This document shows positions 130 through 18,083 of a stretch of 18,083 nt of DNA, one piece after another (position 1 is the first letter of the stretch; the number at the start of each line of letters is the position of its first letter). Source of the DNA: an uncultured Prevotella sp. Its GTDB lineage: Bacteria; Bacteroidota; Bacteroidia; Bacteroidales; Bacteroidaceae. The stretch covers positions 1 to 18,083 of the forward strand of contig CAMOQW010000036.1 of the NCBI GenBank assembly GCA_946623195.1. Reading direction: 5' to 3'. The notes beneath the pieces were generated by a model. That model ran no database searches, was not told the DNA's origin, and saw nothing but the letters and a program-made list of their open reading frames with translations. The translations under genes and the position numbers were made by a program.

Positions 130-134
130 AGACA

Positions 135-1503: not shown

Positions 1504-1516
1504 ATCTTTTTTTACG

Positions 1517-1541
1517 TTTCACTTTTCACTTTTCACTTTTC
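1517..1541. repeat. Heptamer tandem repeat TTTCACT x3.6
   Basis: Three perfect copies of TTTCACT (1517-1537) and a partial fourth fill the spacer between divergent ribD and prmC, just upstream of the prmC -7 box. The period is exactly 7. It occupies the place where a -33 element for prmC would be expected, and no TTG is found there. Confidence 0.85.
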
Positions 1542-1545
1542 TTCG

Positions 1546-1553
1546 TACCTTTG
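1546..1553 (+). promoter_or_regulatory. -7 box TACCTTTG for prmC
   Basis: Exact match to the Bacteroidetes TAnnTTTG -7 element. It ends 8 bases before the prmC ATG at 1562. With transcription starting a few bases after the box, the mRNA would have almost no 5' leader. No convincing -33 TTG is present; that position is heptamer repeat. Confidence 0.6.
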
Positions 1554-1561
1554 CGGTTGCT

Positions 1562-3568: not shown

Positions 3569-3639
3569 TTCTCGGTGCCGGCTATCACCTGCTGAACCGC
3601 GACGAGGTGACTCAGATTCTGATAGAGGGCGTGTGGTGA
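3565..3639 (+). CDS. Possible 24-residue ORF coupled to comF
   Basis: The ATG at 3565 overlaps the comF stop (ATGA) and opens a frame encoding MILGAGYHLLNRDEVTQILI and four more residues before TGA at 3637-3639. It has no recognisable family. The ATGA junction is the same as between prmC and recX, which is the only argument that it is translated. It could also be the relic of a longer gene, since the sequence looks like ordinary globular protein. Confidence 0.25.
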   Translation: MILGAGYHLLNRDEVTQILIEGVW

Positions 3640-3709
3640 ATGCAACCGATTGCGCAGCCTGCTTGTGAAGATGAAAGCCCTTATTGTTACATGCTATTGA
3701 TAAAATGAC

Positions 3710-3717
3710 TATCTTTG
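3710..3717 (+). promoter_or_regulatory. -7 box TATCTTTG for the amylase gene
   Basis: Exact TAnnTTTG match 24 bases before the amylase ATG. The nearest TTG upstream (3684-3686) is 23 bases away, slightly more than the usual 19-21, so the -33 element is weak. Confidence 0.6.
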
Positions 3718-3741
3718 CAACATCGAAACTAACATAACTTA

Positions 3742-5535: not shown

Positions 5536-5547
5536 GAAAAACATCAG

Positions 5548-6336
5548 TCACCGTGCGTCCTGTCGTATGGTGGCTTTTTTTTTGCTTTCCCAAAAGAACT
5601 TGAGGTGCATCATGATGGTAACCAGCCATCCATAGTGTCGGCACATCACGAAGAAGCGTTCCTTCAGCGATTCGCGATGATGCAGCGTGGTAGCTCCTCC
5701 GTCCTCGAAGTCGGCCACCACTTCGTGAGCGTTCACGATGGGCAGTGCAAGTGTTTCGGCTGCCTTCATGATGCGGATGCACCAGTCTACATCGGCAGAG
5801 TAGCGGTAGTGCAAGTCGTAGGACACCTGACGGGCGATGTCCAAACGGGCATAGAATGCCTGATGGCACACCAGCATGCCGTTGCGGAACGAGCGCCACG
5901 ACAGTTTCTCGGGGGGGCGCTTGTCTCGCAGATGCAGGAAATGGCCTGTAGCATCGATGATGGCGGTATCGCCATAGACCACGGCAGGAGTGGAGTCTTT
6001 GCATTTGGTGACGGCATCGGCTACCACTTCCAGCGTCTGAGGCGAGTGCAGGGCATCGCCGGCATTTAGGAACAGGATGTAGTCGCCGGTAGCCTTCCGC
6101 AGCCCTTTGTTCATGGCATCATAGAGTCCGTTGTCGCGCTCTGAGGTAATCACCACCTGATGCCGACTCTTCGTCTGGTAGTTCTTGGCCATTTCCAAAG
6201 TGCCGTCCGTAGAACCGCCGTCAACGATGAGGTGTTCCACCAGTTCGTAGTGCTGGCTGGCTACGCTGTCCAGTGTGCGTTGCAGGCTGCCGGCGGCATT
6301 CCATGTAATGGTAACTATCGAAAAACGTACAGACAT
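5548..6336 (-). CDS. Family 2 glycosyltransferase
   Basis: Transfers a sugar from an activated donor, probably onto a surface polysaccharide; the acceptor cannot be told. The GT-A fold begins at MSVRFSIVTITWNAAGSLQR. It has LIVDGGSTDGTL, ERDNGLYDAMNKGLRKATGD, and the DXD-like region in FLNAGDALH. Further on come GMLVCHQAFYARLD and YSADVDWCIRIMKAAE, typical of the WcaA-like GT2 group. No membrane anchor is visible. The ATG at 6336 is chosen; an in-frame TTG at 6357 would add seven residues encoded by a heptamer repeat. The gene begins 24 bases after the GT4 stop, so the two form an operon. Its last codons overlap the amylase terminator hairpin. Confidence 0.9.
   Translation of the reverse strand: MSVRFSIVTITWNAAGSLQRTLDSVASQHYELVEHLIVDGGSTDGTLEMAKNYQTKSRHQVVITSERDNGLYDAMNKGLRKATGDYILFLNAGDALHSPQTLEVVADAVTKCKDSTPAVVYGDTAIIDATGHFLHLRDKRPPEKLSWRSFRNGMLVCHQAFYARLDIARQVSYDLHYRYSADVDWCIRIMKAAETLALPIVNAHEVVADFEDGGATTLHHRESLKERFFVMCRHYGWLVTIMMHLKFFWESKKKATIRQDAR
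5549..5583 (+). terminator. Intrinsic terminator of the amylase gene, inside the 3' end of the convergent gene
   Basis: A 9-bp stem (CACCGTGCG with CGTATGGTG, two G-T pairs) encloses TCCTGT and is followed by GC and nine T's. It starts 13 bases after the amylase stop. The same bases encode the last residues of the convergent glycosyltransferase, whose lysine run comes from the antisense of the T-tract. Confidence 0.8.
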
Positions 6337-6343
6337 GTCGTTT

Positions 6344-6364
6344 AGTTCAAAGTTCAAAGTTTAA
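6344..6364. repeat. Heptamer tandem repeat AGTTCAA x3 between glycosyltransferase genes
   Basis: Two perfect copies of AGTTCAA (6344-6357) and a third with one change (AGTTTAA, 6358-6364). It fills the junction between the GT4 stop codon and the GT2 start codon. The period is exactly 7. Confidence 0.8.
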
Positions 6365-7596
6365 CGTTCGTAGACCTCTAGGTACTTCTTTGCTACGCTC
6401 TGCTGTGAGTAGCTGTGAGTAACCTTGCTGATACAGGCCTTGCTGAGCGCCGCGTAGTCTGCTTCGTCCAAAACGTAATGGATGCCATGGGCCAAGTCGG
6501 CAGCCTGTTGGAAATCGGCCACATAGCCCGTTTGCCGGTGGTCTATCATCTCGGGAATGCCGCCCACACGGAATCCCACACAGGGTACTCCGCAGGCCAT
6601 GGCCTCCATCAGCGTATTGGGCAGGTTGTCCTCCAGTGAGGGCAACACGAAGACATCAGCGGCATTATAAACCTCCACCACACGCTTGGGGTCACTCACA
6701 TACCCCAACGGATAGGCTTTCAGCGGCAACTGCTGGGCAACCTCCTCGGCATGGCCCCCTAAGATGGCTATGCTTGTCGTCTGTTGCCAGTCAGGATGCT
6801 GTTGTTCCAAGAGCCTGACAGCCTCTACCAGATAGCTGATGCCCTTGCGAGGGTCGGTGACACGTTGCGAGACGAACAGGATGACACGTCCGTCGGCAGG
6901 CAGTCCCAACAGTCTGCGTGCTGTGGCCTTGTCCTTGGGGCGGAACAGATGGGTGTCGATGGGGTTGGGTATGCTGACGATTTGCTGGCCTTTCAGCAGC
7001 TCACTCTTACGAGCCTGGGTAGCTAGCCACTCACTGCAAGCCACAAAGGTCACCCGCTGACCGCTGAGCATGTTGGCTTTCTTCTGCCAGGTACGTCGCA
7101 CAAGTCCTGATCCAGGCAGCAGCGGGCAGTCGGCACACCGGCTTTGGAACTGCTCGCAGCCCCTTGCGTAGTGGCAGACGGCAGTGGCCGGCCAGATGTC
7201 GTGCATGGTCCATACCACGCGCTTCCCAGACCGTAGGATGCGGCTGATGTCCTGAAGTGATAGCATGCCTTGGTTCACCCAGTGCAGGTGGATGATGTCG
7301 GCATCCTGAAATTCACGTAGCTTCGTGATGTCTGTGCCACAGTTGGCAATGTCTATCTCAAACAAGTGGTTGCAGTGCAGATGCAGGTGTAGCCAGATGA
7401 CCAGTCGTTCCCATAGGAAGTGCCAGCGCGGTCGCCATGTCTGTGGCAGCGTGCTTACCGTCAGTGCATCGCTTTCCTTGTCGCGCACCAGCATCATGGC
7501 TTTCACGCCATTGTTGCAGAGAGCCTCCATCAGACGGCCGGCTGCTACGGCAGCCCCGCCTGTACGCTCGCTGGTGTTTACTATCAGTACCTTCAT
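6361..7596 (-). CDS. Family 4 glycosyltransferase (GT-B fold)
   Basis: Retaining sugar transferase using a nucleotide-sugar donor, likely in polysaccharide or glycan assembly. The 411 residues show the N-terminal Rossmann half beginning MKVLIVNTSERTGGAAVAAG, with IIHLHWVNQGML and WTMHDIWPATAVCHYARGC. A cysteine cluster C-x6-C-x2-C follows (HYARGCEQFQSRCADCPLLP), as seen in a subgroup of these enzymes. The C-terminal donor-binding half has ILFVSQRVTDPRKGISYL and VFVLPSLEDNLPNTLMEAMACGVPCVGF, where the acidic pair contacts the donor. The start ATG 7596 lies 27 bases downstream of a TAACTTTG box. It forms an operon with the downstream GT2 gene. Confidence 0.92.
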   Translation of the reverse strand: MKVLIVNTSERTGGAAVAAGRLMEALCNNGVKAMMLVRDKESDALTVSTLPQTWRPRWHFLWERLVIWLHLHLHCNHLFEIDIANCGTDITKLREFQDADIIHLHWVNQGMLSLQDISRILRSGKRVVWTMHDIWPATAVCHYARGCEQFQSRCADCPLLPGSGLVRRTWQKKANMLSGQRVTFVACSEWLATQARKSELLKGQQIVSIPNPIDTHLFRPKDKATARRLLGLPADGRVILFVSQRVTDPRKGISYLVEAVRLLEQQHPDWQQTTSIAILGGHAEEVAQQLPLKAYPLGYVSDPKRVVEVYNAADVFVLPSLEDNLPNTLMEAMACGVPCVGFRVGGIPEMIDHRQTGYVADFQQAADLAHGIHYVLDEADYAALSKACISKVTHSYSQQSVAKKYLEVYER

Positions 7597-7622
7597 TATA
7601 CCTTATTATTTATTATAGGCTA

Positions 7623-7630
7623 CAAAGTTA
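7623..7630 (-). promoter_or_regulatory. -7 box TAACTTTG for the glycosyltransferase operon
   Basis: Minus-strand TAnnTTTG match 26 bases upstream of the GT4 ATG. No good TTG is found at the -33 position. Confidence 0.5.
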
Positions 7631-7693
7631 GTAAATAATCCCATTATCGGAGTGCCTTTTTTAGTTAAAATCTGTTGTTTTCGTACACAGCAC

Positions 7694-7707
7694 TTGATTT
7701 ATGTCAA
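7694..7707. promoter_or_regulatory. FNR/CRP-like palindrome TTGA-N6-TCAA
   Basis: TTGATTTATGTCAA fits the half-site pattern of CRP/FNR-family operators, flanked by C and G that extend the dyad. It is centred about 80 bases upstream of the predicted start of the structured RNA, an upstream-activator position. It also lies inside a wider 8-bp inverted repeat (AGTGCCTT 7651-7658, AAGGCACT 7712-7719), so it may instead be a hairpin at the end of an unseen transcript. Confidence 0.25.
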
Positions 7708-7744
7708 GAACAAGGCACTTTTTTGAGGAAAAGAGGCGAAAAGT

Positions 7745-7776
7745 ATTGTGAGGTTCGAAAAAACGTCGTACCTTTG
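7745..7776 (+). promoter_or_regulatory. Promoter of the structured RNA (TTG-N21-TACCTTTG)
   Basis: TTG at 7745-7747 and TACCTTTG at 7769-7776 are 21 bases apart, within the Bacteroidetes range. Transcription would start near 7780. Confidence 0.75.
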
Positions 7777-7779
7777 CAT

Positions 7780-8093
7780 CGTCAACAAAAGACAATGACT
7801 GAGTGCAGTCATAATGGTTAATAGATTGTTTTAGGTTAGTAGTAATATTTATAGTTTTAGGTTTTTAGTTATTGGTAAGAAGAAAGTTTTAAATGTGTTA
7901 GGATAACAGTGGTCGCCGTGAGGCGCTCATAACTTTCTTTTTTAAATTGATTAAGTTAGTATTAGTAATATATGCTGCCGAAAGGCAGTCCGCCAGTCGG
8001 GAGGCTGGTTTCCTGTTTTGGAAAAGGATTTTTAGTTAAACATAGGCTTTTTTGGAATGCCGCTGCTCGTTGAAGAGTCGCGGTATTTTTTTT
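7780..8093 (+). ncRNA. Stand-alone structured non-coding RNA, about 310 nt, family not identified
   Basis: This stretch has a strong promoter, no long ORF on the sense strand and an intrinsic terminator, and it folds well. A 12-bp helix (7877-7888 with 7931-7942, one G-U pair) encloses a GTGA-capped hairpin (7914-7925). Then follow CTGCC-GAAA-GGCAG (7975-7988), CCAGTC-GGGA-GGCTGG (7993-8008) and TTTCC-N6-GGAAA (8009-8024). Three of these loops are GNRA tetraloops. The 5' part has an ATGACT/AGTCAT stem at 7795-7812 and an AU-rich stretch. The segment GTTAGTAGTAATAT (7835-7848) recurs as GTTAGTATTAGTAATAT (7955-7971). It does not show the signatures I know for RNase P RNA, tmRNA or SRP RNA. A 6S-like RNA or the Rfam 'Bacteroidales-1' class is possible; I cannot decide by eye. 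An 8-codon ORF at 7795-7821 could be a leader peptide, but the terminator makes a simple mRNA leader less likely. Confidence 0.6.
8057..8093 (+). terminator. Intrinsic terminator of the structured RNA
   Basis: ATGCCGC (8057-8063) pairs with GCGGTAT (8080-8086). After one mismatch an inner stem pairs around the loop GTTGAA. Eight T's follow (8086-8093). It separates the RNA from the lipoprotein gene, which has its own promoter. Confidence 0.85.
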
Positions 8094-8152
8094 GTGCCTG
8101 ACAAGGTGGACAGCTTTAGGGCTTTCCCTATACATTTTTCGGGAATATCCCC

Positions 8153-8182
8153 TTGCGTTTTCCAGGAAAATAGTTACCTTTG
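8153..8182 (+). promoter_or_regulatory. Promoter of the glycine-zipper lipoprotein gene (TTG-N19-TACCTTTG)
   Basis: TTG at 8153-8155 and TACCTTTG at 8175-8182, 19 bases apart. The predicted leader is about 20 bases and has no clear Shine-Dalgarno site. Confidence 0.75.
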
Positions 8183-8207
8183 CAACGGACATTAAAACAA
8201 TAAGACA

Positions 8208-8999
8208 ATGATGAAGAATACTTTAATGGCTTTGATTGCCTCAGCGCTCCTGCTGAGCAGCTGTGGCACTTATACAGGACAGGGGGCCTATGTGGGCGGT
8301 TCGTTCGGTTCTATTCTGGGCTCGGCTATCGGTGGTATCGCCGGAGGCTGGCGCGGCAGTGACGTTGGAACCATAGTGGGCATGGCCGGTGGTGCCGCCA
8401 TCGGTGCTGCCATCGGTGCTGCTGCCGACCAGAAGCAGGCAGAGCAGGTGGAGCAGTACAAGCGCGAACGGGCCCAGCGACAGGACCGATATGGTCAGTC
8501 GAGACGGGCTGAGTCGGCTGGTTCCTATGATGACAGTGGCTTCGATGCCACCAATAGTGCCGACGATCGTATCGACTTTGACGGTGCCGGACCTACGGGG
8601 CCTGTAGGTTCTGTCGGTTCCACGACGGTAGAACCCATGACCGACAATGCCAAGCTGGAGATTCGCAACATCAACATCCTGGATGGCAACCGCGACGGTG
8701 TGTTACGTGCCGGCGAGGAGTGTAAAATCTCCTTCGAGGTGATGAACTGTTCCGGCAATCCTGTCTATGACGTTCGGCCTATGGTGACGGAAGTAACCGG
8801 CAACAAGCGCATCTATATCTCCCCCAATCTGCATGTGGAAAGTATTCCGCCACATACGGGTATTCGCTATACTGCATCGTTGCTGGCCGACAAGAAGCTG
8901 AAAGACGGCAACGCAGTCATTCGTGTCGGAGTGGCACATGGCAGCAGTCAGGATGTTGCCAGTAATCAAGATATTACGATAAAGACGAGCCGTAAGTAG
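8208..8999 (+). CDS. Glycine-zipper lipoprotein with a C-terminal beta domain
   Basis: Function unknown. A 19-residue lipoprotein signal ends in LLSSC, so C19 is the probable lipidated residue and the protein is anchored in the cell envelope. Residues 28-73 are a glycine zipper (VGGSFGSILGSAIGGIAGGW, then a second GxxxG block GMAGGAAIGAAIGAAA), as in SlyB/YMGG-type proteins that insert into or span membranes. A charged, glutamine-rich linker (75-145) leads to a beta-rich domain (149-243) of the kind that packs like an immunoglobulin fold. It contains DGNRDGVLRAGE (159-170), which fits a 12-residue EF-hand-like calcium loop. The gene has its own promoter and terminator and stands alone. ATG 8208 and ATG 8211 are both possible starts. 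Confidence 0.8.
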   Translation: MMKNTLMALIASALLLSSCGTYTGQGAYVGGSFGSILGSAIGGIAGGWRGSDVGTIVGMAGGAAIGAAIGAAADQKQAEQVEQYKRERAQRQDRYGQSRRAESAGSYDDSGFDATNSADDRIDFDGAGPTGPVGSVGSTTVEPMTDNAKLEIRNINILDGNRDGVLRAGEECKISFEVMNCSGNPVYDVRPMVTEVTGNKRIYISPNLHVESIPPHTGIRYTASLLADKKLKDGNAVIRVGVAHGSSQDVASNQDITIKTSRK

Positions 9000-9011
9000 G
9001 CTCGTCTTTTT
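8981..9011 (+). terminator. Intrinsic terminator of the lipoprotein gene
   Basis: A perfect 11-bp inverted repeat, AAAGACGAGCC and GGCTCGTCTTT, has a 7-base loop and ends in five T's. The stop codon lies at the loop/stem border, so the stem begins inside the coding region. It also stands between this gene and convergent rlpA. Confidence 0.88.
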
Positions 9012-9029
9012 CTATGTGGACAGCGGTTA

Positions 9030-9542
9030 TTACTTGTTCTGGGTGGCATCCTCTTTCATGTCCTGCCAGTAGGGGGTAATGCCGCTGGAGCCCTCATTGG
9101 TTTCCAGTTCCAACTCGGGAACCTCGATGTCGTCGGGCGGAAGGAAGGGCACGATGATGTCGTTGGCCTTTTGCACGGTGACCATTGCTACACCTTGCGA
9201 GATGATGCCCAATTCTTTGGCGGCTCGCCAGGAAAGGTCTACAATACGGCTGCGGACAAAAGGACCGCGGTCGGTGACCCGGACAATGACGGAGCGGCCG
9301 TTGGCGGGATTGTAGACTTTCAGTTTGGTGCCAAAGGGATAGGAGCGGTGGGCACACGTCAGGCTGTCCGGGTGCAGGCGCTCGCCACTGGCCGTCCGGC
9401 GGCCTGTTAAGCTCTTGGAATAATAAGAAGCCTTGCCGGTTTGGGATTGGCCATCAAGAGTCGAGAGTTGGCAGCTGATGAGTGCAGCGCATGTCAATAT
9501 GCACCGCTTGATATATTTGCTATGTGAAAACACCCTCATCAT
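9030..9542 (-). CDS. rlpA: RlpA-like double-psi beta-barrel protein
   Basis: RlpA proteins act on peptidoglycan in the envelope; in Pseudomonas RlpA is a lytic transglycosylase for denuded glycans at the septum. The 170-residue protein has an export signal whose ALISC (C24) fits a lipobox. The double-psi beta barrel (about 36-118) has [39 protein letters not shown] and [20 protein letters not shown]. The E of ASGE and the D of TDRGP match the proposed catalytic acids. There is no SPOR domain; the tail (120-170) is acidic and probably disordered. The start follows a GGGAG site 7 bases upstream (ATGATG, either one possible). It lies 21 bases after gdhA, so it is likely cotranscribed with it. 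Confidence 0.88.
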
Positions 9543-9563
9543 CTGTCAACTCCCAGTTCTCTG

Positions 9564-10901
9564 CTATACGATGCCTTGTGCCATCATGGCATTGGCTACT
9601 TTCATGAAGCCGGCGACATTGGCGCCCTTCACGTAGTCGATGTAGCCGTCGGGCTGCTTACCGTATTTGACACACTGCTCATGGATGCTCGACATAATCT
9701 GATGCAGCTTCTGGTCTACTTCAGCCTCACTCCAGCCTAAGCGCATGGAGTTCTGCGTCATCTCCAGACCACTGGTGGCCACACCGCCAGCATTGACGGC
9801 CTTGCCAGGTGCAAACAATTGATGGGCAGCAATGAATTTCTCGGCAGCTTCTGCTGTGCATCCCATGTTGCTCACTTCAGCCACACACAGTGGTTTGCTG
9901 GCCAGAATCTGGTCTGCATCCTGACCGTTCAGCTCGTTTTGAGTAGCACATGGCAGATAGATGTCGGCCTTGCGCTCCCAGGGTTTCTTGCCGGGGAAGA
10001 ACTCTGCTCCATCGAACTCGTCAACGTAAGGTTGGCAGACGTCATTACCCGAGGCACGCAGTTCCAACAGGTATGCTATCTTTTCATCGTCAAGTCCGGC
10101 AGGATCGTAGACGTAGCCGTCAGGACCACTGATGGTGATCACCTTGGCCCCTAATTCGGTAGCCTTCTTGGCGGCACCCCATGCCACATTGCCGAAACCG
10201 GAAATGGCCACGGTCTTGCCCTTGATGTCGAGCCCGTGGGTCTGTAGCATCTGGTTGACGAAGTACAAAGCACCAAAGCCGGTGGCTTCGGGACGAATCT
10301 TGGAACCGCCCCACTCGATACCCTTACCCGTCAGCACGCCCTGGAACTGGTGAGTCAGCTTCTTGTATTGTCCGAAGAGGTAGCCAATCTCGCGGGCTCC
10401 CACGCCGATGTCGCCGGCCGGTACGTCCTCGTCGGGACCAATGTGGCGATAAAGCTCGGTCATAAAAGCCTGGCAGAAGCGCATCACTTCATGGTCAGAG
10501 CGTCCGCGGATGCTGAAGTCGGCACCGCCCTTGCCGCCACCCATGGGCAGCGTGGTCAGCGAGTTCTTGAAGGTTTGCTCAAAGCCCAGGAACTTCAGGA
10601 TGCTGAGGTTCACAGAGGGATGGAAACGCAGGCCTCCCTTGTACGGCCCTATGGCGGAATTGAACTGTACCCGGTATCCGATGTTGACGTGCACCTCGCC
10701 CTTGTCGTCAGTCCAAGGTACGCGGAACGTGATGATACGCTCTGGTTCCACGATACGCTCAATCAGTTTGACTTTCTCGAATTCGGGATGCTGATTGTAG
10801 ACATCCTCAATTGACACCAACACTTCACGTACTGCCTGCAGGTATTCTGATTCACCCGGGTGCTTATGTTCCAGGTCCTGCATGATTTTCTCTACATTCA
10901 T
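9564..10901 (-). CDS. gdhA: Glutamate dehydrogenase (hexameric type)
   Basis: Interconverts glutamate with 2-oxoglutarate plus ammonia, the main route of ammonia assimilation in many Bacteroidales. The 445-residue length is standard for the small hexameric class. Visible motifs are NIGYRVQFNSAIGPYKGGLR, PMGGGKGGADF with catalytic K124, PAGDIGVGAREIG (D164), and the dinucleotide loop ISGFGNVAWG (233-242). VAEVSNMGCT replaces the VAEGANMP common elsewhere; I recall that variant from Bacteroides enzymes. NAD or NADP preference cannot be settled by eye. It is transcribed from a good promoter about 55 bases upstream, divergent from the receiver/ATP-grasp gene, with rlpA downstream. Confidence 0.96.
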   Translation of the reverse strand: MNVEKIMQDLEHKHPGESEYLQAVREVLVSIEDVYNQHPEFEKVKLIERIVEPERIITFRVPWTDDKGEVHVNIGYRVQFNSAIGPYKGGLRFHPSVNLSILKFLGFEQTFKNSLTTLPMGGGKGGADFSIRGRSDHEVMRFCQAFMTELYRHIGPDEDVPAGDIGVGAREIGYLFGQYKKLTHQFQGVLTGKGIEWGGSKIRPEATGFGALYFVNQMLQTHGLDIKGKTVAISGFGNVAWGAAKKATELGAKVITISGPDGYVYDPAGLDDEKIAYLLELRASGNDVCQPYVDEFDGAEFFPGKKPWERKADIYLPCATQNELNGQDADQILASKPLCVAEVSNMGCTAEAAEKFIAAHQLFAPGKAVNAGGVATSGLEMTQNSMRLGWSEAEVDQKLHQIMSSIHEQCVKYGKQPDGYIDYVKGANVAGFMKVANAMMAQGIV

Positions 10902-10958
10902 AGTATAAGGTATTTAAAAGTTAGACAGACAATATGTCATTATGTTATTATTACTTCG

Positions 10959-10989
10959 CAAAAATAAGGAATTTCCTGCATATAGCCAA
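10959..10989 (-). promoter_or_regulatory. Promoter of gdhA-rlpA (TTG-N20-TATTTTTG)
   Basis: On the minus strand TTG (10989-10987) and TATTTTTG (10966-10959) are 20 bases apart. The predicted leader is about 50 bases. Confidence 0.75.
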
Positions 10990-11066
10990 GGAAACTTCCA
11001 ATTATTTTTCCGAATTAGTTACATTTTGTTAAATTCGCCTGTTTGTAGCACGAGCATGGTAGCCAT

Positions 11067-11087
11067 ATAATTCATAATTCATAATTA
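11067..11087. repeat. Heptamer tandem repeat ATAATTC x3
   Basis: Two perfect copies of ATAATTC and a third ending in A (ATAATTA), with period 7. It lies directly upstream of the -7 box of the receiver/ATP-grasp gene, where the -33 element would be. Confidence 0.75.
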
Positions 11088-11092
11088 TTTTC

Positions 11093-11100
11093 TACCTTTG
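11093..11100 (+). promoter_or_regulatory. -7 box TACCTTTG for the receiver/ATP-grasp gene
   Basis: Exact -7 match 17 bases before the ATG at 11118, so the leader is short and lacks a Shine-Dalgarno site. No TTG is seen at the -33 position, which is repeat sequence. Confidence 0.65.
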
Positions 11101-11117
11101 CACGAAAATAGTGTAAT

Positions 11118-14100
11118 ATGAGTGCTACGAATATACCTCAGGAGTTTAACAACTTTTTCCTAAAGGACGTGTCGTTTGTCAATCTGATGACGAAACGAAT
11201 TTTCAACGTGCTGATAGTGGCCAACCCCTACGATGCCTTCATGCTGGAGGACGACGGACGTATTGACGAGAAAGTGTTCGACGAGTATAGCGAGCTGGGC
11301 ATGCGCTACCCACCGACGTTCCGTCAGGTTTCTTCTACCGAAGAGGCCCGCGAACTGCTGGGAACTACCGACATCGACCTGGTCATCTGTATGCCGGGTA
11401 ATGCCGACAACGATGCCTTTGCCGTAGCACGCGACATCAAGCAGATGGTGCCCCACATCCCCTGTGTGGTGCTCACTCCTTTCTCGCACGGCATTACCAA
11501 ACGCATTGAAAACGAGGACATGACCATCTTTGATTATGTGTTCTGCTGGTTAGGCAATACCAACCTCATCCTCTCGATTATCAAGCTGATAGAGGACCAG
11601 ATGAACATTGAGCACGACATCAAGGAGGCCGGCGTGCAGATGATTCTGCTGGTTGAGGATAACATCCGCTTCTACTCCTCCGTGCTGCCCAACCTGTATA
11701 ACTACATCCTGGCGCAGTCGAAGAATTTCTCCACCGAGGCCCTCAACCCCCATGCTGCCGCCCAGCGTAAGCGCGGACGACCGAAGGTGGTGCTGGCTAC
11801 GACCTACGAGGAGGCCATCCATTGGTATGAGACGTATTCCGACAATGTGTTGGGTGTCATCAGCGACACCCGCTTCCCGATGCGTGGCGTCAGCGGCCGG
11901 CTGGCTCACGTTGAAGAAGGCGACCCGGAGGCCGGTCTGAAACTGTTGCGTGAAATCAGGAAGCGCGACGAGTATGTGCCGCTCATCCTGCAGAGTTCCG
12001 AGATAGTCAATAAGGAGAAGGCCCGGCAGGAGGGTTTCCATTTTGTAGACAAGAACTCGAAGAAGATGAATGTCGACCTGCGTCAGCTCATCGAGGAACA
12101 CATGGGTTTTGGCGACTTCGTGTTCCGCGATCCGGCGACGAAGGCTGAGATAGCCCGCGTGTCGTCGTTGAAGGAGCTGCAGGACAACATCTTCAAGATT
12201 CCCAACGACTCCATGCTCTATCATATCAGCCGCAACCACATGAGCCGCTGGCTCAGTGCACGTGCCATCTTCCCTGTCTCGCAGTTCCTGAAGACGGTCA
12301 CCTGGCATAAGCTGCAGGATGTCGATGCCCACCGCCAGATTATCTTCGATGCCATCGTGCAGTATCGCCGCATGAAGAACATCGGCATCGTGGCCGTCTT
12401 CGACCGGCTGAAGTTCGACCGCTATGCCCACTTTGCGCGAATCGGTGAGGGTTCGTTAGGCGGCAAGGGCCGTGGTCTGGCATTCCTTGACAACATCATC
12501 AAGCGGCATCCCGAACTGAACCATTTTGAGAATGCTACCGTGTCGATTCCGAAGACCGTGGTGCTCTGTACCGACTTCTTCGATGAGTTCATGGACAAGA
12601 ACAACCTGTGGGGCATAGCCCTGAGCGATGCCCCCGATGAGGAAATCCTGCAGCACTTCCTGCGTGCCCAACTGCCCGACTCACTGATTGCCGACTTCTT
12701 TACGTTCTTCGATGCCGTCAAGTCACCCATTGCCGTGCGTTCCTCGTCGTTGCTCGAAGACTCCCACTATCAGCCCTTTGCCGGCATCTACTCCACCTAC
12801 ATGATACCCTATTTGGAGGATAAGTACGAGATGCTGCGCATGTTGGCCTGTGCCATCAAGGGTGTCTATGCTTCCGTTTACTATCGTGACTCGAAAGCCT
12901 ATATGACCGCCACCTCCAACGTCATCGACCAGGAGAAGATGGCCGTCATCCTGCAGGAGGTGGTGGGCCGTCAGTATGGCGACAAGTTCTATCCCACGTT
13001 CTCGGGCGTGCTGCGCTCGCTCAACTACTATCCCATTGGCGACGAACTGGCCGAAGAGGGTATCGCCTCGCTGGCCCTCGGACTGGGCAAGTATATCGTG
13101 GATGGCGGACAGACGCTGCGCGTGTCGCCCTATCACCCCCATCAGGTGCTGCAGACTTCTGAGATGGAAACGGCTCTGAGTGAGACGCAGACCCGCTTCT
13201 ATGCCCTCGACATGAGTCATGTGGGCGACGACTTCAAGGTGGACGACGGGTTCAACATCAAGAACCTCCGTGTCAAGGAAGCCGACAAGGATGGCTCTCT
13301 GCAGGGCATCGCCTCCACCTACGACCCCAACGACCAGGTGATTCGTGACGGCATCTACGAAGGAGGCCGCAAGGTCATCTCCTTCAGTGGTGTCTTGCAG
13401 CATGGCATCTTCCCGCTGCCTGAGATTCTGCAACTCTCGCAGAAGTATGGCTCTGAAGAGATGCGACGTCCGGTGGAGATAGAGTTTGCCTGCAATCTGC
13501 AGGGAGCAGGCAGTGCCACTACGGGCGATTTCTACCTGCTCCAGATACGTCCCATCGTCGACTCCAAGCAGGTGCTTGACGAAGACCTGTCGGCCATTCC
13601 CGACGAGCAATGCCTGCTGCGCTCGCACAACTCGCTGGGACATGGCATTTCCGAGGACGTGGTCGATGTAGTCTATGTCAAGGCTGGCGATGACTTCACG
13701 GCGACCAACAACCCCGTCATTGCCGACCAGATAGAACAAATCAACCGCAAGTTCCTGGCAGAGGACAAGAACTACGTGCTCATTGGTCCGGGTCGTTGGG
13801 GGTCCAGCGACTACTGGCTGGGCATTCCCGTCAAGTGGCCCCACATCTCGGCAGCGCGTGTCATCGTGGAGGCTGCTCCTAAGAACTACCATGTAGACCC
13901 CTCGCAGGGTACTCACTTCTTCCAGAACCTGACCAGTTTCGGTGTGGGTTATTTCACTGTCAATACCTATACGGGCGATGGGGTGCTACAAACGGAAATC
14001 CTCGACAGCATGCCTGCCGTCGAGGAAACGGAATATGTGCGCCATGTGCGCTTCCAGCGTCCATTGAAGATTATGATGGACGGCAAGAAGCAGCATGGTG

Positions 14101-14126
14101 TGGTCTTACTGCCCACCGAGGCGTGA
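11118..14126 (+). CDS. Double receiver / PEP synthase-type ATP-grasp fusion protein
   Basis: Function unknown; 1002 residues, cytosolic. Residues 28-160 resemble a response-regulator receiver but lack the phosphoacceptor Asp: DLVICMPGN places V where D should be. Residues 173-330 look like a functional receiver: acidic pair E180-D181 (LLVEDN), D250 in VISDTRFPM, S293/S294 and K312. Residues 440-815 are the ATP-grasp domain of PEP synthase and pyruvate phosphate dikinase: GSLGGKGRGLAFL, AVRSSSLLED, PFAGIYSTY, ALGLGKYIVDGG and the closing FYLLQIRPI. The phosphohistidine domain (no TSHAA-like motif) and the PEP/pyruvate barrel are absent. Instead a C-terminal domain (820-1002) carries GPGRWGSSDYWLGIPVKW and SQGTHFFQNLTS. 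I infer a signal-controlled ATP-dependent phosphotransferase; the substrate is unknown. Automatic annotation as PEP synthase would be misleading. An alternative start is M24 (11187). The end overlaps the convergent gene by 21 bases. Confidence 0.85.
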   Translation: MSATNIPQEFNNFFLKDVSFVNLMTKRIFNVLIVANPYDAFMLEDDGRIDEKVFDEYSELGMRYPPTFRQVSSTEEARELLGTTDIDLVICMPGNADNDAFAVARDIKQMVPHIPCVVLTPFSHGITKRIENEDMTIFDYVFCWLGNTNLILSIIKLIEDQMNIEHDIKEAGVQMILLVEDNIRFYSSVLPNLYNYILAQSKNFSTEALNPHAAAQRKRGRPKVVLATTYEEAIHWYETYSDNVLGVISDTRFPMRGVSGRLAHVEEGDPEAGLKLLREIRKRDEYVPLILQSSEIVNKEKARQEGFHFVDKNSKKMNVDLRQLIEEHMGFGDFVFRDPATKAEIARVSSLKELQDNIFKIPNDSMLYHISRNHMSRWLSARAIFPVSQFLKTVTWHKLQDVDAHRQIIFDAIVQYRRMKNIGIVAVFDRLKFDRYAHFARIGEGSLGGKGRGLAFLDNIIKRHPELNHFENATVSIPKTVVLCTDFFDEFMDKNNLWGIALSDAPDEEILQHFLRAQLPDSLIADFFTFFDAVKSPIAVRSSSLLEDSHYQPFAGIYSTYMIPYLEDKYEMLRMLACAIKGVYASVYYRDSKAYMTATSNVIDQEKMAVILQEVVGRQYGDKFYPTFSGVLRSLNYYPIGDELAEEGIASLALGLGKYIVDGGQTLRVSPYHPHQVLQTSEMETALSETQTRFYALDMSHVGDDFKVDDGFNIKNLRVKEADKDGSLQGIASTYDPNDQVIRDGIYEGGRKVISFSGVLQHGIFPLPEILQLSQKYGSEEMRRPVEIEFACNLQGAGSATTGDFYLLQIRPIVDSKQVLDEDLSAIPDEQCLLRSHNSLGHGISEDVVDVVYVKAGDDFTATNNPVIADQIEQINRKFLAEDKNYVLIGPGRWGSSDYWLGIPVKWPHISAARVIVEAAPKNYHVDPSQGTHFFQNLTSFGVGYFTVNTYTGDGVLQTEILDSMPAVEETEYVRHVRFQRPLKIMMDGKKQHGVVLLPTEA

Positions 14127-15098
14127 GAAATACTCGATGATGTCTTCCCACGTCTTGAACGTGTCGGAACCGAATTCCAGAGGGGTGGCCAGTGGGTCAC
14201 CCTCACCTCTCACCTCTTGCCTCTCGCCTCTAATCAGATAGTCGCCATAGAGCAAGTCGCGCCGCCACGTGAAGATGCTATGCCGCCAGGCCGGCACGTT
14301 CACGTGTTCGGTCAGCCACGGCATCATGGCTTCGCTTTCGCCCACAAAATACACCTGATAGTGCTCTATCAACTGGCGCACAGCCTTCACCATCGATGAG
14401 GCTGGCTTCCGGTAGCTGTCCATCAGCGTCTCTATACCTATATATATAATAGGGCGCTGGCGCTTCTCCTGCATGTCGTCAATCCAGCGGATGACGGGCA
14501 CCACCGAGTGCATGAAACTCTTGTCGTTCATGCGGTGCTCGCCATGAAAATGCAAGGCCTGCGGGTAGTGCTCGTGGAACATGTCGAAGGTGTCTACCGT
14601 CGTGTCTTCGTCGCCAAAGAGACCGAAGACGCGCTGGCGGTCTTCGGCGTCAAGTCCCTCGAAGCGGTGCTCCGACACTTCGCGGTATTCCTTGATCATG
14701 GCCTTGTCTACATAGAACTCCTGCACGCCGTCCTGTCTGGGGTTCTGAAACTGCTGAGTGCCCGTCATGCCGTGGGCCTTCATGGTCTCGGCTATCTCCA
14801 GGGCGGGATTCACGCAGATGCGGTCATGGCCGCGCAGCTGTTCGGCATACATGCCGCCCATGCTGGTGCCGATGATCAGGCTGGGGTGCTCCGTGTCGCA
14901 GATGTGGTGGAGTAGGGCGATGGCTTCTTCCGGACGAACGGGCAGGTCGGGGGCAATGACTTTTGCCTGTGGCATCACGACGCGTAGCCGCTCTACCGTT
15001 CCTGACTGTCCGCTGCTGCCGAAACCGTGGCAATACAGTATGGTCTTGCCCGCCATCAGCTCGGGAAACTGTTTTACGTATGGATTTTCTTGCATCAT
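14106..15098 (-). CDS. YqiA/YcfP-type alpha/beta hydrolase fused to a decayed HAD nucleotidase-like domain
   Basis: The N-terminal 205 residues match the YqiA/YcfP esterase group: ILYCHGFGSSGQSGTVERL, nucleophile S79 in IIGTSMGGMYAEQL, GDEDTTVD as acid region, and HFHGEHRMND with a candidate His. E. coli YqiA ends about here. The next 120 residues follow the layout of bacterial 5'(3')-deoxyribonucleotidase-like HAD proteins: start IIYIGIE, middle QLIEHYQVYFVGES, end GDYLI...LEFGSDTFKTWEDIIEYF. The HAD acids seem lost: IYIGIE stands where IYIDMD is expected, and GDYLIRGER where GDYLIDDR is expected. The frame continues upstream to 15125, but those codons precede the -7 box, so the start is ATG 15098 or 15095, almost leaderless. 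The last 21 bases overlap the convergent fusion gene. Substrate unknown. Confidence 0.8.
   Translation of the reverse strand: MMQENPYVKQFPELMAGKTILYCHGFGSSGQSGTVERLRVVMPQAKVIAPDLPVRPEEAIALLHHICDTEHPSLIIGTSMGGMYAEQLRGHDRICVNPALEIAETMKAHGMTGTQQFQNPRQDGVQEFYVDKAMIKEYREVSEHRFEGLDAEDRQRVFGLFGDEDTTVDTFDMFHEHYPQALHFHGEHRMNDKSFMHSVVPVIRWIDDMQEKRQRPIIYIGIETLMDSYRKPASSMVKAVRQLIEHYQVYFVGESEAMMPWLTEHVNVPAWRHSIFTWRRDLLYGDYLIRGERQEVRGEGDPLATPLEFGSDTFKTWEDIIEYFSRLGGQ
14204..14231. repeat. In-gene heptamer tandem repeat (CACCTCT x2, TGCCTCT, CGCCTCT)
   Basis: Four units of period 7 lie inside the hydrolase/HAD gene. On the coding strand they give the arginine/glutamate-rich RGERQEVRGEG (about residues 290-300), right after GDYLI. 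The 28-base length is not a multiple of three. Confidence 0.8.
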
Positions 15099-15102
15099 GC
15101 TG

Positions 15103-15134
15103 CAAAGGTACGAATAAGGATGCAAAAAGCCAAA
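15103..15134 (-). promoter_or_regulatory. Promoter of the hydrolase/HAD gene (TTTG-N20-TACCTTTG)
   Basis: On the minus strand TTTG (15134-15131), with its TTG 20 bases from TACCTTTG (15110-15103). The box ends 4 bases before ATG 15098, which fixes the start downstream of the longer open frame and implies a leaderless or nearly leaderless mRNA. Confidence 0.75.
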
Positions 15135-15149
15135 TTTCGTCTAAAAAAC

Positions 15150-15180
15150 TTGCCAAAGTAAAATAAAATGCCTATCTTTG
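15150..15180 (+). promoter_or_regulatory. Promoter of the aquaporin gene (TTG-N20-TATCTTTG)
   Basis: TTG at 15150-15152 and TATCTTTG at 15173-15180, 20 bases apart. The leader is about 46 AT-rich bases. It stands back to back with the hydrolase promoter, the two -33 elements being 15 bases apart. Confidence 0.8.
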
Positions 15181-15229
15181 CGTTCAAATAACAAACATTA
15201 TTAATCACTTTAAACATTTTAGTAACGTT

Positions 15230-15907
15230 ATGAAAAAGTATTTAGCTGAAATGGTCGGCACGATGGTGCTTGTACTGATGGGTTGCGGCGTGGCCGTCAG
15301 TCTGGGTTGTGATCCTGTAAACAACATTCCTGCTGTGGTGGGTACTGCTATGGCCTTTGGTCTGGCCGTTGTCGCAATGGCCTACACCATCGGCGGCATC
15401 TCCGGTTGCCACATCAATCCCGCTATCACGTTAGGCTGCTTCCTGGCTGGCCGCATGAATGCCAAGGATTGTGGTATGTACATCGTCTTCCAGTGCATCG
15501 GTGCCTTCATCGGCAGCATCCTGCTCTATGTGCTGACAGCTAATGTTCCCGGCTTGGAGGGAACGGGTGCCAACGACCTGCAGGCCAATGTCTCTATGCT
15601 GGGCGGTCTGCTGGCTGAAATCATCTTCACCTGTGTCTTCGTGCTCGTCGTACTGGGTGCTACTGCCAAGACCAACGGCGCCACCAACAACTTCGCCGGT
15701 CTGGCCATCGGTCTGAGCCTGGTGCTTGTCCACCTGGTCTGCATCCGCTACACCGGTACTTCCGTGAACCCCGCCCGTTCGCTGGCTCCCGCCATCTTCC
15801 AGGGTGGCACGGCTCTGGCCAACCTGTGGATTTTCATCGTAGGACCCTTCGTAGGTGGTGCCTTGGCTGCCTTCATCTGGAAGGCTATTGAGCCTGCCGA
15901 GAAGTAA
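15230..15907 (+). CDS. aqpZ: Aquaporin Z-type water channel
   Basis: Inner-membrane channel of the MIP family, 225 residues with six hydrophobic helices and two half-helices. The two NPA signatures are HINPAITLG (N63-A65) and SVNPARSLAPA (N180-A182). The four residues that set the pore filter in E. coli AqpZ (Phe, His, Thr, Arg) are all found at equivalent places: F43, H168, T177 and R183. This points to a water-selective channel rather than a glycerol facilitator, which usually has Gly and a larger pore. The length agrees with AqpZ (about 230). It is monocistronic, with its own promoter and a following long hairpin; no osmoregulatory partner is adjacent. Confidence 0.95.
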   Translation: MKKYLAEMVGTMVLVLMGCGVAVSLGCDPVNNIPAVVGTAMAFGLAVVAMAYTIGGISGCHINPAITLGCFLAGRMNAKDCGMYIVFQCIGAFIGSILLYVLTANVPGLEGTGANDLQANVSMLGGLLAEIIFTCVFVLVVLGATAKTNGATNNFAGLAIGLSLVLVHLVCIRYTGTSVNPARSLAPAIFQGGTALANLWIFIVGPFVGGALAAFIWKAIEPAEK

Positions 15908-15930
15908 TCGTCGTCACGATATCTTACTGG

Positions 15931-15965
15931 GAGAGCGGATGTGCCTTATGGGTGCATCCGCTCTC
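15931..15965 (+). terminator. Long hairpin after aqpZ, probable terminator
   Basis: GAGAGCGGATG (15931-15941) pairs perfectly with CATCCGCTCTC (15955-15965), and up to five weaker pairs continue inside, leaving a TAT loop. No T-tract follows, so it may act as an RNA 3'-end stabiliser as much as a terminator. Confidence 0.6.
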
Positions 15966-16073
15966 TGGCGTTTAAGAGTCTCTGCTATATACGCCCAGCC
16001 TCATGCATTAGTAACCTTTGTAACAACCTTTGGTGTGGCTAATGGCAGGCATTCGAGTCTTTGTAGTTCCCTG

Positions 16074-16172
16074 ACTCCTAACCCAAATGCAGGGATTCCC
16101 TTTGTATAAAGGCATTTTGAAGGGTTAGGAGTTGGCTGGAGTCCTAACCGACTCCTAACCAACTCCTAACCC
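16074..16172. repeat. Left structured inverted-repeat end of the vapE unit
   Basis: Its first 59 bases fold: ACTCCTAACCC (16074-16084) pairs perfectly with GGGTTAGGAGT (16122-16132). AAATGC pairs with GCATTT inside it, and CCTTT-GTAT-AAAGG forms the tip. The inner side carries three CTCCTAACC-type units (16141-16170, period about 11). Read inward, it resembles the right end (17718 back to 17606) in order, spacing and sequence. The vapE stop codon lies 7 bases inside it. Confidence 0.7.
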
Positions 16173-16178
16173 AAGTCC

Positions 16179-17408
16179 TCACGCCGCCTCTTGAATCTTT
16201 GCAGGCTTCATCTTTGGAACAACCCTGTAGTGGGCTACGTTGTGCGGATGACTCTGCTCGAAGCCCAGCCTCTTCATCGCCAACCCCAACTTGATGCTCA
16301 GCCCGGCCATTGTCTTCAGCGAGGGGAATGCTTTGGTCAGAATGCCGAGCAACTCCGTGTTGCTCATCAGCCGACTCGTCTCACCCTCCTCAGGCTTCGC
16401 GAAGCAGGCTTCAATCATCTCCGTCAGGTCCTTCTTGGCCATATAGTCCAGATTCAGCTCCTGAATGCGGGCCACCTCGTCGTTGTTGAACCAGTAGGGA
16501 GCCTTCAGCTCACACAGCTCATAGTGCACCTGAGCATACAACTGCCCGTAGTCAATGTCGCCCGTGTTGTCAATCAACTGCCCGTCAGGAATGGTGAGGC
16601 AGATGTAGCGACGCGAACCTGTGGCATCCGTCAGCGGATGGGGATTATTCGTAGTGGCCACAAACGAAGCATAACGGGGACGGTCAGCCTGGGATCGTCC
16701 GAAGATGGGGCGTCCGTTCACCTTACTTTTCGAGAGAGTCTGCTTCAGCGCAGGATGCTGCGATGGACGGATGGCATCCAGTTCATCGAGGTTCACAATG
16801 AGATTGTTCGTCAGCGCCATCTCCTTGTCGAACTTGTTTGAGAGGTTCAGATGGTCCAGATAGTACTGTCGCAGCGGCTGGGGTAGCAGACGGCGCACGA
16901 AGGTAGTTTTGCCACAGCCCTGAGCTCCGATGAGCGTCGGCACACACTCATTACCGTGCAACATGTCCATCTGCAGCCAGTGGGCCACAGTTGAACGCAG
17001 CCAGACTGCCAGGAAGTGGTGCTGCTCCGTGGAGAGGCCGGGCAGTCGGGAGAAGAGCCGGGCTACATGGTTCTGGCCGTCCCATTGGGGTAGTTCACTG
17101 AGGAACTCACGTATGGGATTATACGCGCGAACCTCCTCAGAACGCAGCAGGTCCTGGATGTCCGTCTTCGGATTGCACTTCTCGTCAGCCAGTTCCTTGC
17201 GGGCTCGGATGATGATGCTCATCTCGGCCTCAGGCGACAGTTCACGATACTCCGGCTCGTCCTTGGCGGGCAGCGTTGCAAACTCAATCTTTCCGCTGAG
17301 CACATTGCGGCGGAAGAGATAATGGTTCTGAAGGAACTGCTCTACTGCGAGCAATCCTCCGTTAGAGGCCTGAACGGCCTCCAGTTGTTTTGTCAGTTCT
17401 TTTTCCAT
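16179..17408 (-). CDS. VapE-type SF3 helicase-like protein with C-terminal DUF3874 region
   Basis: Related to virulence-associated protein E, a P-loop family found in phages, phage satellites and Bacteroidetes islands and thought to help DNA replication. The 409-residue protein has a helical N-terminus (1-110) without a recognisable primase domain. The SF3-like core has Walker A GAQGCGKTT (161-169), Walker B LIVNLDELD with D208/E209, sensor ATTNNPHP and arginine pair GSRRY (264-268). The C-terminal 100 residues (DLTEMIEACFAKP, LMSNTELLGILTKAFPS, LGLAMKRLGF) match DUF3874. All nucleotide-binding residues are intact, so it looks functional. The usual companions in Bacteroides islands (primase-like N-terminal protein, DUF4248, HU-like protein, amidase) are absent. 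The gene lies alone between structured inverted repeats and has its own promoter. Host-like base composition gives no sign of very recent transfer. Confidence 0.88.
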   Translation of the reverse strand: MEKELTKQLEAVQASNGGLLAVEQFLQNHYLFRRNVLSGKIEFATLPAKDEPEYRELSPEAEMSIIIRARKELADEKCNPKTDIQDLLRSEEVRAYNPIREFLSELPQWDGQNHVARLFSRLPGLSTEQHHFLAVWLRSTVAHWLQMDMLHGNECVPTLIGAQGCGKTTFVRRLLPQPLRQYYLDHLNLSNKFDKEMALTNNLIVNLDELDAIRPSQHPALKQTLSKSKVNGRPIFGRSQADRPRYASFVATTNNPHPLTDATGSRRYICLTIPDGQLIDNTGDIDYGQLYAQVHYELCELKAPYWFNNDEVARIQELNLDYMAKKDLTEMIEACFAKPEEGETSRLMSNTELLGILTKAFPSLKTMAGLSIKLGLAMKRLGFEQSHPHNVAHYRVVPKMKPAKIQEAA

Positions 17409-17441
17409 AAATTAGTTTTTCTGTGATATTAGTCCTATTCC

Positions 17442-17458
17442 TTAAGGTTTTTCCTTAA
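17442..17458 (-). promoter_or_regulatory. Inverted repeat TTAAGG-N5-CCTTAA in the vapE leader
   Basis: A 6-bp dyad with a TTTTT spacer (AAAAA on the coding strand) lies between the vapE -7 box and its ATG, in the position of an operator or leader hairpin. Confidence 0.35.
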
Positions 17459-17466
17459 TTCGATTG

Positions 17467-17498
17467 CAAAATTACAAAATTATCTGATAACCTCCAAA
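17467..17498 (-). promoter_or_regulatory. Promoter of vapE (TTTG-N20-TAATTTTG)
   Basis: On the minus strand TTTG (17498-17495) with TTG 20 bases or so from TAATTTTG (17474-17467). A second identical TAATTTTG (17482-17475) adjoins it but lacks a -33 partner. The leader is about 55 bases. Confidence 0.7.
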
Positions 17499-17605
17499 TC
17501 TTTCCACCAAATTTCAAGCGTTTTTCCCCAAATGTTAAAGAACTGCTTTTTGAGGTTAGAGCCTGGGGGCTTAGGTAAGCGTCGCTATGGGCCGAGCGAG
17601 GAGCA

Positions 17606-17718
17606 GGGTTAGGAGTTGGGTTAGGAGTTGGTTAGGAGTTGGTGAGGAGTTCAGGTCACTCCTAACCCATCTGAAACCCCTTTCTGCAAAGGGCTTTCGC
17701 CATAATATGGTTAGGAGT
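17606..17718. repeat. Right structured inverted-repeat end of the vapE unit
   Basis: The inner side has three copies of GGTTAGGAGTTGG (17606-17642) and one decayed copy (GGTGAGGAGTTC, 17641-17652). The outer 61 bases fold: ACTCCTAACC (17658-17667) pairs with GGTTAGGAGT (17709-17718), and CCCTTT-CTGC-AAAGGG forms the tip. It is the inverted counterpart of 16074-16172. Confidence 0.7.
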
Positions 17719-17736
17719 CGCCCTATTTTGCGCTAA

Positions 17737-17786
17737 GCCTAAGAGATTTTGTTGGTAGGCCTAAGAAAAAAAGCTGGATGCCTAGG
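17737..17786. repeat. Spaced GCCTAAG repeats
   Basis: GCCTAAG at 17737 and 17759 and GCCTAGG at 17780, at steps of 22 and 21 bases. The units between them have diverged. It may be an old tandem repeat with the same period as the array that follows. Confidence 0.4.
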
Positions 17787-17828
17787 TAGAAAAACACTGC
17801 TCGCCCATAAAGAGTAATCTCTCCTCCA

Positions 17829-17933
17829 ACGAGGTTACGGCTCGTAGCCAACGAGATTACGGCTCACTACCGACGAGATTACGGCTCACTACCGACGAGA
17901 TTACGGCTCACTACCGACGAGCCGTAACCTCGT
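17829..17933. repeat. 22-bp tandem array closed by a 17-bp inverted repeat
   Basis: Four head-to-tail 22-bp units: a variant at 17829-17850, then three identical ones at 17851-17916 (ACGAGATTACGGCTCACT plus ACCG). The array ends with ACGAGCCGTAACCTCGT (17917-17933), the exact reverse complement of the first 17 bases of the variant unit. There are no spacers, so it is not CRISPR. No coding frame or neighbour explains it. Confidence 0.9.
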
Positions 17934-17936
17934 TTT

Positions 17937-17976
17937 GTATTCCCAAGGTGGGAATACTTTGTTCCCAACCTGGGAA
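17937..17976. promoter_or_regulatory. Two tandem palindromes TTCCCA-N3-TGGGAA
   Basis: GTATTCCCA-AGG-TGGGAATAC (17937-17957, 9-bp arms) and TTCCCA-ACC-TGGGAA (17962-17976, 6-bp arms) share the same core, 22 bases centre to centre. They could be a paired protein-binding site or folded repeats. The rest of the window (17977-18083) is AT-rich, with no gene or clear signal seen. Confidence 0.55.
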
Positions 17977-18083
17977 TGTTTTCAAAGCAAAGCATCAACT
18001 TATTCAGTATACGTCAATAGATATAATTCCCGATATTTGCAAATAATTCCAAAGATATTTTCTCGTTTCACATAAAATTCGTA

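Follow-up and report, generated by a model that had tools for sequence, protein, structure and literature searches.

The window analysed here, a stretch of 18,083 nucleotides from an uncultured Prevotella sp. (GenBank assembly GCA_946623195.1, contig CAMOQW010000036.1, positions 1 to 18,083 of the forward strand), carries at positions 16074-17718 a delimited one-gene repeat unit in which an intact vapE gene lies between inverted ends. The unit is probably a full-length copy of a mobile family of rumen Prevotella that resembles the REPIN-RAYT systems and whose cognate protein would be an iteron-binding helicase similar to the Rep of SaPI. The features revealed by comparison are the shared ends of the family, the repeat words specific to each copy, the gene-less doublets of ends, the pieces of vapE units held within doublets and the covariation of the words with the C-terminal domain of VapE.

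The whole unit (16074..17718, minus strand) consists of end A, the vapE gene on the minus strand, its own leader region and end B, with the best bounds at about 16068/16074 to 17718. End A (16068..16172, plus strand), downstream of vapE, comprises an outer word, a core hairpin, a reversed word, a spacer and inner word copies, and end B (17606..17718, minus strand), upstream of vapE, has the same layout reading inwards. As proposed previously from the letters of the window alone (hereafter the sequence-only reading), the region 16074-16172 and the reverse complement of 17606-17718 align along nearly their full length, with a mean column identity of 80%, and an inverted-repeat search identified arms of 80 nt that are 79% complementary. 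The repeated words and hairpin tips of that reading were likewise observed at both ends. The word CTCCTAACC occurs nine times in the 18 kb, always within the two ends (at 16075, 16123(-), 16152 and 16163 in end A and at 17607(-), 17619(-), 17630(-), 17659(+) and 17709(-) in end B), against an expectation of 0.07, and none of 200 shuffles reached nine. Compared with dinucleotide-shuffled sequences, the single strands of both ends, read inwards, fold better (z of -6.7 and -5.6). The core hairpin is corrected to CCTTTGTATAAAGG at one end and CCCTTTGCAGAAAGGG at the opposite end. A covariance model trained on 64 ends of the family gave strong matches in the window only at 16068-16172 (plus strand, 68.3 bits) and 17618-17718 (minus strand, 63.9 bits), along with two weak matches (17.8 and 15.2 bits) that are opposite-strand echoes of the same two ends; since both ends of the window belonged to the training set, these matches indicate consistency and are not a proof. 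A known RNA family was rejected for the window, as a scan against Rfam at gathering scores gave no match and a tRNA search found none.

The gene between the ends (16179..17408, minus strand) encodes a VapE/SF3 helicase of 409 aa without internal stop and is, in agreement with the sequence-only reading, the sole recognised gene there, the two longest other open reading frames (216 and 130 aa, antisense to vapE) having no Pfam match. The protein matches the Pfam VapE-like domain (E-value 1.5e-33), DUF5906, DUF3874 and AAA_5, and not Y1_Tnp. It contains a VapE/D5-type helicase core, in which we take residues 161-170 (GAQGCGKTTF) to be the Walker A motif, and the solved structure with the closest fold is SaPI PriRep1 (7pds). 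Its C-terminal domain (residues 320-409; 16182..16451, minus strand) is predicted to be a winged helix and includes the DUF3874 match at residues 328-390. Pfam and NCBIfam revealed no nuclease, primase or transposase domain in the protein. The absence of a transposase or integrase, also claimed earlier, was upheld by the Pfam scan of the unit and extends to the 14 other open reading frames scanned to its left; no DDE transposase matched the protein or the two longest other frames. The only NCBIfam match of VapE, to ABC-F, was rejected as spurious (20.8 bits against a cut-off of 975), as was a defence system, the protein being without a PADLOC match. The leader between end B and the vapE start codon (17409..17605, minus strand), read from the sequence, contains TTTTGTAATTTTGCAATCG, which resembles the Bacteroidales -7 element (TAnnTTTG) and is a candidate promoter element.

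A protein search identified 6841 VapE relatives among 8000 scored candidates. Relatives of the unit were taken as the best 80 of 361 places confirmed in a scan of contigs representing one genome per species; all 80 lie in records whose titles name Prevotella, Prevotellaceae, Bacteroidaceae or Bacteroidales, many of these titles also giving a ruminant source, and several genomes carry more than one vapE unit. Inverted repeats around vapE were found at E<=0.01 in 68 of the 74 testable copies (73 relatives and the window; 67 below 1e-5), after leaving out 7 of 81 copies with short flanks. A direct-orientation control gave matches of at most 83 nt in 36 of the 74, because the words are repeated. 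At E<=1e-5 the covariance model located both ends in 65 of the 80 relatives, the right end alone in 13, some of which are cut by a contig end, and none in two (L037 and L066), which yet have repeats by the inverted-repeat test; of the six copies failing the latter test, five are longer units with both ends found by the model and one (L074) has one end. In the longer units L011, L021, L040 and L041 a DUF6078 gene, possibly an accessory gene, lies between the left end and vapE (at about 4230-4740), and in the fifth longer unit, from Prevotella communis, IS66 transposase genes lie inside (L028, 2335-4769). Two VapE relatives (P0046 and P0077) carry a similar insert of about 23 residues (RQ..LDGRVVTDEGK) at two different N-terminal places, a pattern suggestive of two insertions of a small in-frame element.

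The sequence-only reading had offered, as its alternative, a relic of a larger island. Descent of the unit from a phage satellite or island reduced to its helicase and origin is highly improbable, even though the PHROG matches of VapE are phage helicases and primases and the available text of PMC7581432 describes related helicases with iteron origins in SaPI and SCC elements. A scan of viral contigs gave 19 pattern matches and no confirmed relative, and the retention of two inverted ends that share a copy-specific word, a layout that recurs in most of the family (inverted ends in 68 of 74 copies), is not what a relic would be expected to show. Moreover, at 12 loci of eight genomes that carry other VapE paralogs (open frames of 421-745 aa), no end reached E<=0.001 in the 1.5 kb flanking the match on each side; two weak end matches lie at 0.003.

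The 64 aligned ends follow a common plan of outer word, core hairpin (GCCTTTGTACAAAGGG-like), reversed word, short spacer and inner words. The word varies by copy (CTCCTAACC, CACCTACCT, CATATAACA, AACCTCATA, CACCTCCCG and others), with 39 different consensus words in 62 copies, and is common to both ends of a copy, the left end being matched best by the right end of the same copy in 48 of 63 cases (5 of 68 were dropped for an aligned repeat below 60 nt). The hairpin between the reversed and the inner word keeps its pairing through change, with 86.1% of cells paired against 64.0% when shuffled and 38-52% when slid; pairing with the outer word, as an alternative hairpin, is weaker (70.7%, against 58.3% shuffled and 64.2% when slid by one).

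Word distance was further compared with protein distance in windows along VapE, holding the identity of residues 1-350 constant, for 62 copies (one of the 63, with an undetermined word, was left out). Residues 365-395 gave a partial r of 0.557, which none of 1000 permutations reached (null maximum 0.174), as against 0.12 for residues 301-350 (17/1000), 0.10 for residues 351-364 (30/1000) and -0.10 to 0.06 for the rest. At residue 390, asparagine accompanies A at word position 6 in 25 copies and C in two, and histidine, glycine or arginine accompanies C in 26 copies and A in none (10 of 63 copies, being ties, were left out); the corresponding Fisher value of 4e-13 is optimistic because the position was picked after the scan. 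On a tree of residues 1-350, 14 changes are counted both for residue 390 and for the word character, which agree in 51 of 53 copies; of 11 non-overlapping pairs with different residues at 390, 9 show the expected difference in the word. Copies L061 and L067 are 97% identical in the core and 65% identical in residues 365-395, with the words CATCTAACC and CATCTCCCG, respectively. As a counter-example, L048 and L060 differ at residue 390 and share a consensus word, although TCCCTAACG is present in the right end of L060. A predicted recognition of the words at the unit ends by the C-terminal domain of VapE is well supported by this comparison. Covariation of this kind needs only binding, and to that extent it also suits an explanation in which VapE is a domesticated regulator or chromosome-organising DNA-binding ATPase with autoregulatory sites and a regulon, the sites having spread by ordinary duplication. 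We consider this explanation unlikely.

Dispersed sites are already visible with the core motif at up to two mismatches. The covariance model at E<=0.001, with 150 candidates scored per genome, gave 23, 8, 19, 54, 79, 27, 7 and 17 end matches in the genomes G001 to G008, respectively, the own ends of the units included. Of the 44 gene-less sites fetched, 38 consist of a pair of ends placed towards each other as in a complete unit and separated by -1 to 318 nt, and such inverted doublets of about 200-530 bp are scattered through the genomes; the sample favours doublets, since 27 sites were picked partly because two ends were visible, and among the sites picked by the core motif alone 13 of 17 are doublets. 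Twelve of 124 model hits were left out: partial, overlapping or opposite-strand echoes, a full-length but overlapping hit of L124, and a further full-length hit of L174, which is a vapE locus. The best fitting of 70 vapE units lies in the same genome for 23 of the 44 sites, where about 1.3 would be expected. G007, the genome of L001 (91%), the closest relative of the window unit among the matches listed, has a doublet (L190) in which the window's own word occurs five times and whose best-fitting unit is that of the window. Among the 11 of 38 spacers that were compared, mostly the longer ones, five hold pieces of a vapE unit from the same genome: the matching piece is leader sequence of unit L173 in L169 and L170, leader sequence of unit L187 in L186 and L188, and in L180 a part of unit L181 from within the gene. 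These five look like internal-deletion derivatives, and the probable derivation of doublets from vapE units is well supported by comparison. The sequence-only reading had named ends occurring widely without vapE as a case that would speak against a mobile unit. Such ends do occur; however, the sites are mostly inverted doublets, many with the word of the resident unit, and sites with a resident word and unit pieces are what derived non-autonomous copies would look like.

Copies within a genome are 92-97% identical in four of seven groups and 96% identical in a fifth (two copies), with two further pairs at 62-65%. Several similar doublet copies share a flank, as spread by ordinary duplication from a regulatory site would allow, and others (L193 and L196, 97% identical) show none in flank blasts. 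The latter copies, together with the layout of the sites as long inverted doublets resembling whole units (38 of 44; 13 of 17 by core motif alone), the unit pieces in 5 of 11 spacers, the copy numbers of 7 to 79 ends per genome and the several genomes with more than one unit, argue against VapE as a regulator with dispersed sites.

The association of ends with vapE was examined in 150 congeners, with ends at E<=1e-7, 26 candidates scored per genome, so that end counts are lower bounds, and short-type VapE at E<=1e-110. At least 54 genomes have ends and 40 have the short VapE; ends are present in 36 of these 40 and in 18 of the 110 others (Fisher 7e-17, a value that ignores kinship). As a control, ends occur in 19 of 54 genomes with Y1_Tnp and in 35 of 96 without (Fisher p = 1.0, no association). 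These data bear on the earlier proposal of a minimal mobile unit moved in trans, of which the delimited unit and its recognition-like ends are supported, as is membership of a dispersed family, and movement in trans is not supported. That the unit and doublets are non-autonomous passengers of a Y1/RAYT-type or other resident transposase or recombinase, with vapE as cargo, is quite unlikely: the word tracks the C-terminal domain of the unit's own VapE, which is unexplained for a cargo gene, and Y1 transposases, the sole trans candidate tested, were rejected for want of association over the 150 congeners. The lack of a recognisable nuclease in VapE, the IS66 genes within unit L028, and the hairpin ends and absent target duplication, in which IS200/IS605- and REPIN-type movement is similar, are in its favour.

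Several results weigh against a mobile family. The target duplications that the sequence-only reading had suggested seeking beside the unit did not materialise, there being no excess of direct repeats in the flanks of 48 family sites (mean longest repeat 4.60, against 4.91 in shuffled pairings; site boundaries are uncertain by a few bases), and comparisons of orthologous and paralogous loci revealed no precise empty site. Empty aqpZ loci, also sought on the suggestion of that reading, were not obtained either: a query with the aqpZ stretch matched 109 of 150 genomes, and the 30 orthologues fetched had no vapE match, no right flank within 1.5 kb and no full synteny. A reciprocal comparison of G004 with G043 (the genome of L036) showed a shared unit and a second unit elsewhere, with no clean empty site. 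L039, L045, L046, L050, L051, L063, L074 and L075 have the vapE unit at one syntenic locus across several species, which implies vertical inheritance in that sub-lineage; fixation at one locus, which the earlier reading had counted against mobility, is thus seen in part of the family. The regulatory explanation is kept alive by this vertical inheritance, by the want of a clean empty site and by the absence of target duplication. In addition, 18 of the 110 congeners without a short VapE match have ends and 4 of the 40 with it have none, and for 21 of the 44 gene-less sites the best-fitting unit belongs to another genome. Several of these 21 fit a sister or cousin unit slightly better than their own (for example L036 for sites of G004, and L048 or L049 for sites of G006), and seven, L192-L198 of G004, form a doublet family, with almost no spacer and 89-97% identity, that lacks a matching vapE unit in that genome, some of the copies sharing one flank. 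Six of the 11 spacers have no unit match above 29 nt (L113, L114 and L121 with matches of 17-29 nt only, to unit L118, and L116, L179 and L200 with none), flanks shared beyond the ends of some doublets suggest that part of the copying may be by larger repeats, and a VapE in which no nuclease, primase or transposase domain is recognised leaves cutting and joining unexplained.

The flanks of the sites are A+T-rich (about 72%). A flank blast over the loci fetched gave 106 row pairs, many of which represent one locus fetched twice. Beside the P. communis doublet L169/L232 the adjacent gene is present in relatives, the listed alignments stop at or before the gene end, and the far side is not conserved. 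A paralogous empty-site candidate (L202 against L225) was rejected, the sequence at the junction being different, and an open-frame test of intergenic placement was uninformative (13 of 35 joined junctions lie in a frame of at least 80 codons).

For the mobile family that we favour, the following course of events may be envisaged. The predicted winged-helix domain would bind the words, as iterons, at both ends in the manner of SaPI Rep; phage P4 alpha, like SaPI Rep, binds its origin. The helicase would load at the words and open the hairpin-forming ends, and host replication would produce a copy, single-stranded or displaced, with the folded ends as its limits. Re-entry of this copy into the chromosome, the weakest step, would take place in A+T-rich DNA, perhaps at replication forks, and leave no target duplication; our guess is single-strand re-entry at forks, and the strand-transfer chemistry of the family is not well supported. 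The same protein could copy internal-deletion derivatives that keep both ends, much as RAYTs are believed to copy REPINs, and word changes paired with changes in the recognising domain would isolate copies from one another, giving rise to many word dialects. We tentatively propose, as a possibility somewhat short of probable, a new class of bacterial transposable element in which a lone iteron-binding replicative helicase acts on origin-like folded ends, without transposase, integrase, recombinase or HUH nuclease, and coevolving dialects of word and winged helix keep sibling elements apart.

The closest known concept is REPIN-RAYT, in which, according to PMC3116915, inverted doublets of a structured repeat occur several times per genome, are linked to a specific cognate protein and constitute the replicating unit. 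Here, too, 38 of 44 gene-less sites are doublets, with 7-79 end matches per genome (unit ends included), and doublets are linked to a resident cognate gene (36/40 against 18/110; a same-genome unit for 23/44). The cognate protein, however, is an SF3 helicase, whereas RAYT is a Y1 HUH transposase, and the ends of the vapE unit are about 100 nt long with repeated copy-specific words, Y1 genes being unassociated. With SaPI Rep/PriRep1, SCCmec Cch2 and phage P4 alpha the protein shares a D5/SF3-type helicase with a C-terminal domain, which in SaPI Rep and Cch2 binds iterons or a putative origin (PMC7581432). In contrast to these, the vapE unit has iterons at both gene ends in inverted order and gene-less copies elsewhere, and no island, integrase or primase domain was recognised in it. 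Miniature inverted-repeat transposable elements such as BrickBuilt of Porphyromonas gingivalis are similarly short, non-autonomous, intergenic inverted-repeat elements of a Bacteroidales genome (PMC4596501); BrickBuilt has 23-nt tandem repeats and short terminal repeats listed beside an IS5-family element, and the word helicase is absent from the main text of that paper, whereas the vapE-family doublets match a helicase-coding unit. A DDE-type insertion sequence differs in that no DDE transposase was found in the unit and no target-site duplication was seen at the 48 sites. No description of the vapE repeat family was found among the papers listed in literature searches on vapE, DUF3874, MITEs and REP sequences of Prevotella, and transposition by SF3 or initiator helicases, most subscription papers and all bioRxiv preprints being outside the scope of the search.

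Known mobility enzymes include the DDE, HUH, serine and tyrosine enzymes and the casposases. If the proposal is true, a replication-initiator helicase alone, with host enzymes, would found and maintain a mobile repeat family, a mode of DNA mobility would be added beside these, and part of the repeat load of rumen Prevotella genomes would be explained. The 62 natural copies with 39 consensus words, each with its own recognition domain, provide a data set for a protein-DNA code.

In the neighbourhood of the unit, 13 of the 14 open reading frames to its left have chromosomal-type Pfam matches, including RibD, PrmC, RecX, amylase, glycosyltransferases, glutamate dehydrogenase and major intrinsic protein (aqpZ), and one has no match. 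No integrase, attachment site or phage-packaging gene was recognised in the unit or these 14 frames, the right side comprising 365 bases only. At 17819-17934, 100 nt outside the unit, lies a tandem array of 22-nt repeats (CTCACTACCGACGAGATTACGG) terminated by an inverted copy of 18 bp; units or doublets in two other genomes are likewise flanked by arrays whose GTCGGTA core is similar. Upstream of aqpZ, a stretch of about 38 nt (15100-15138) matches many places in congeners, mostly with 87-95% identity among the matches listed, and represents either another dispersed sequence or a common promoter.
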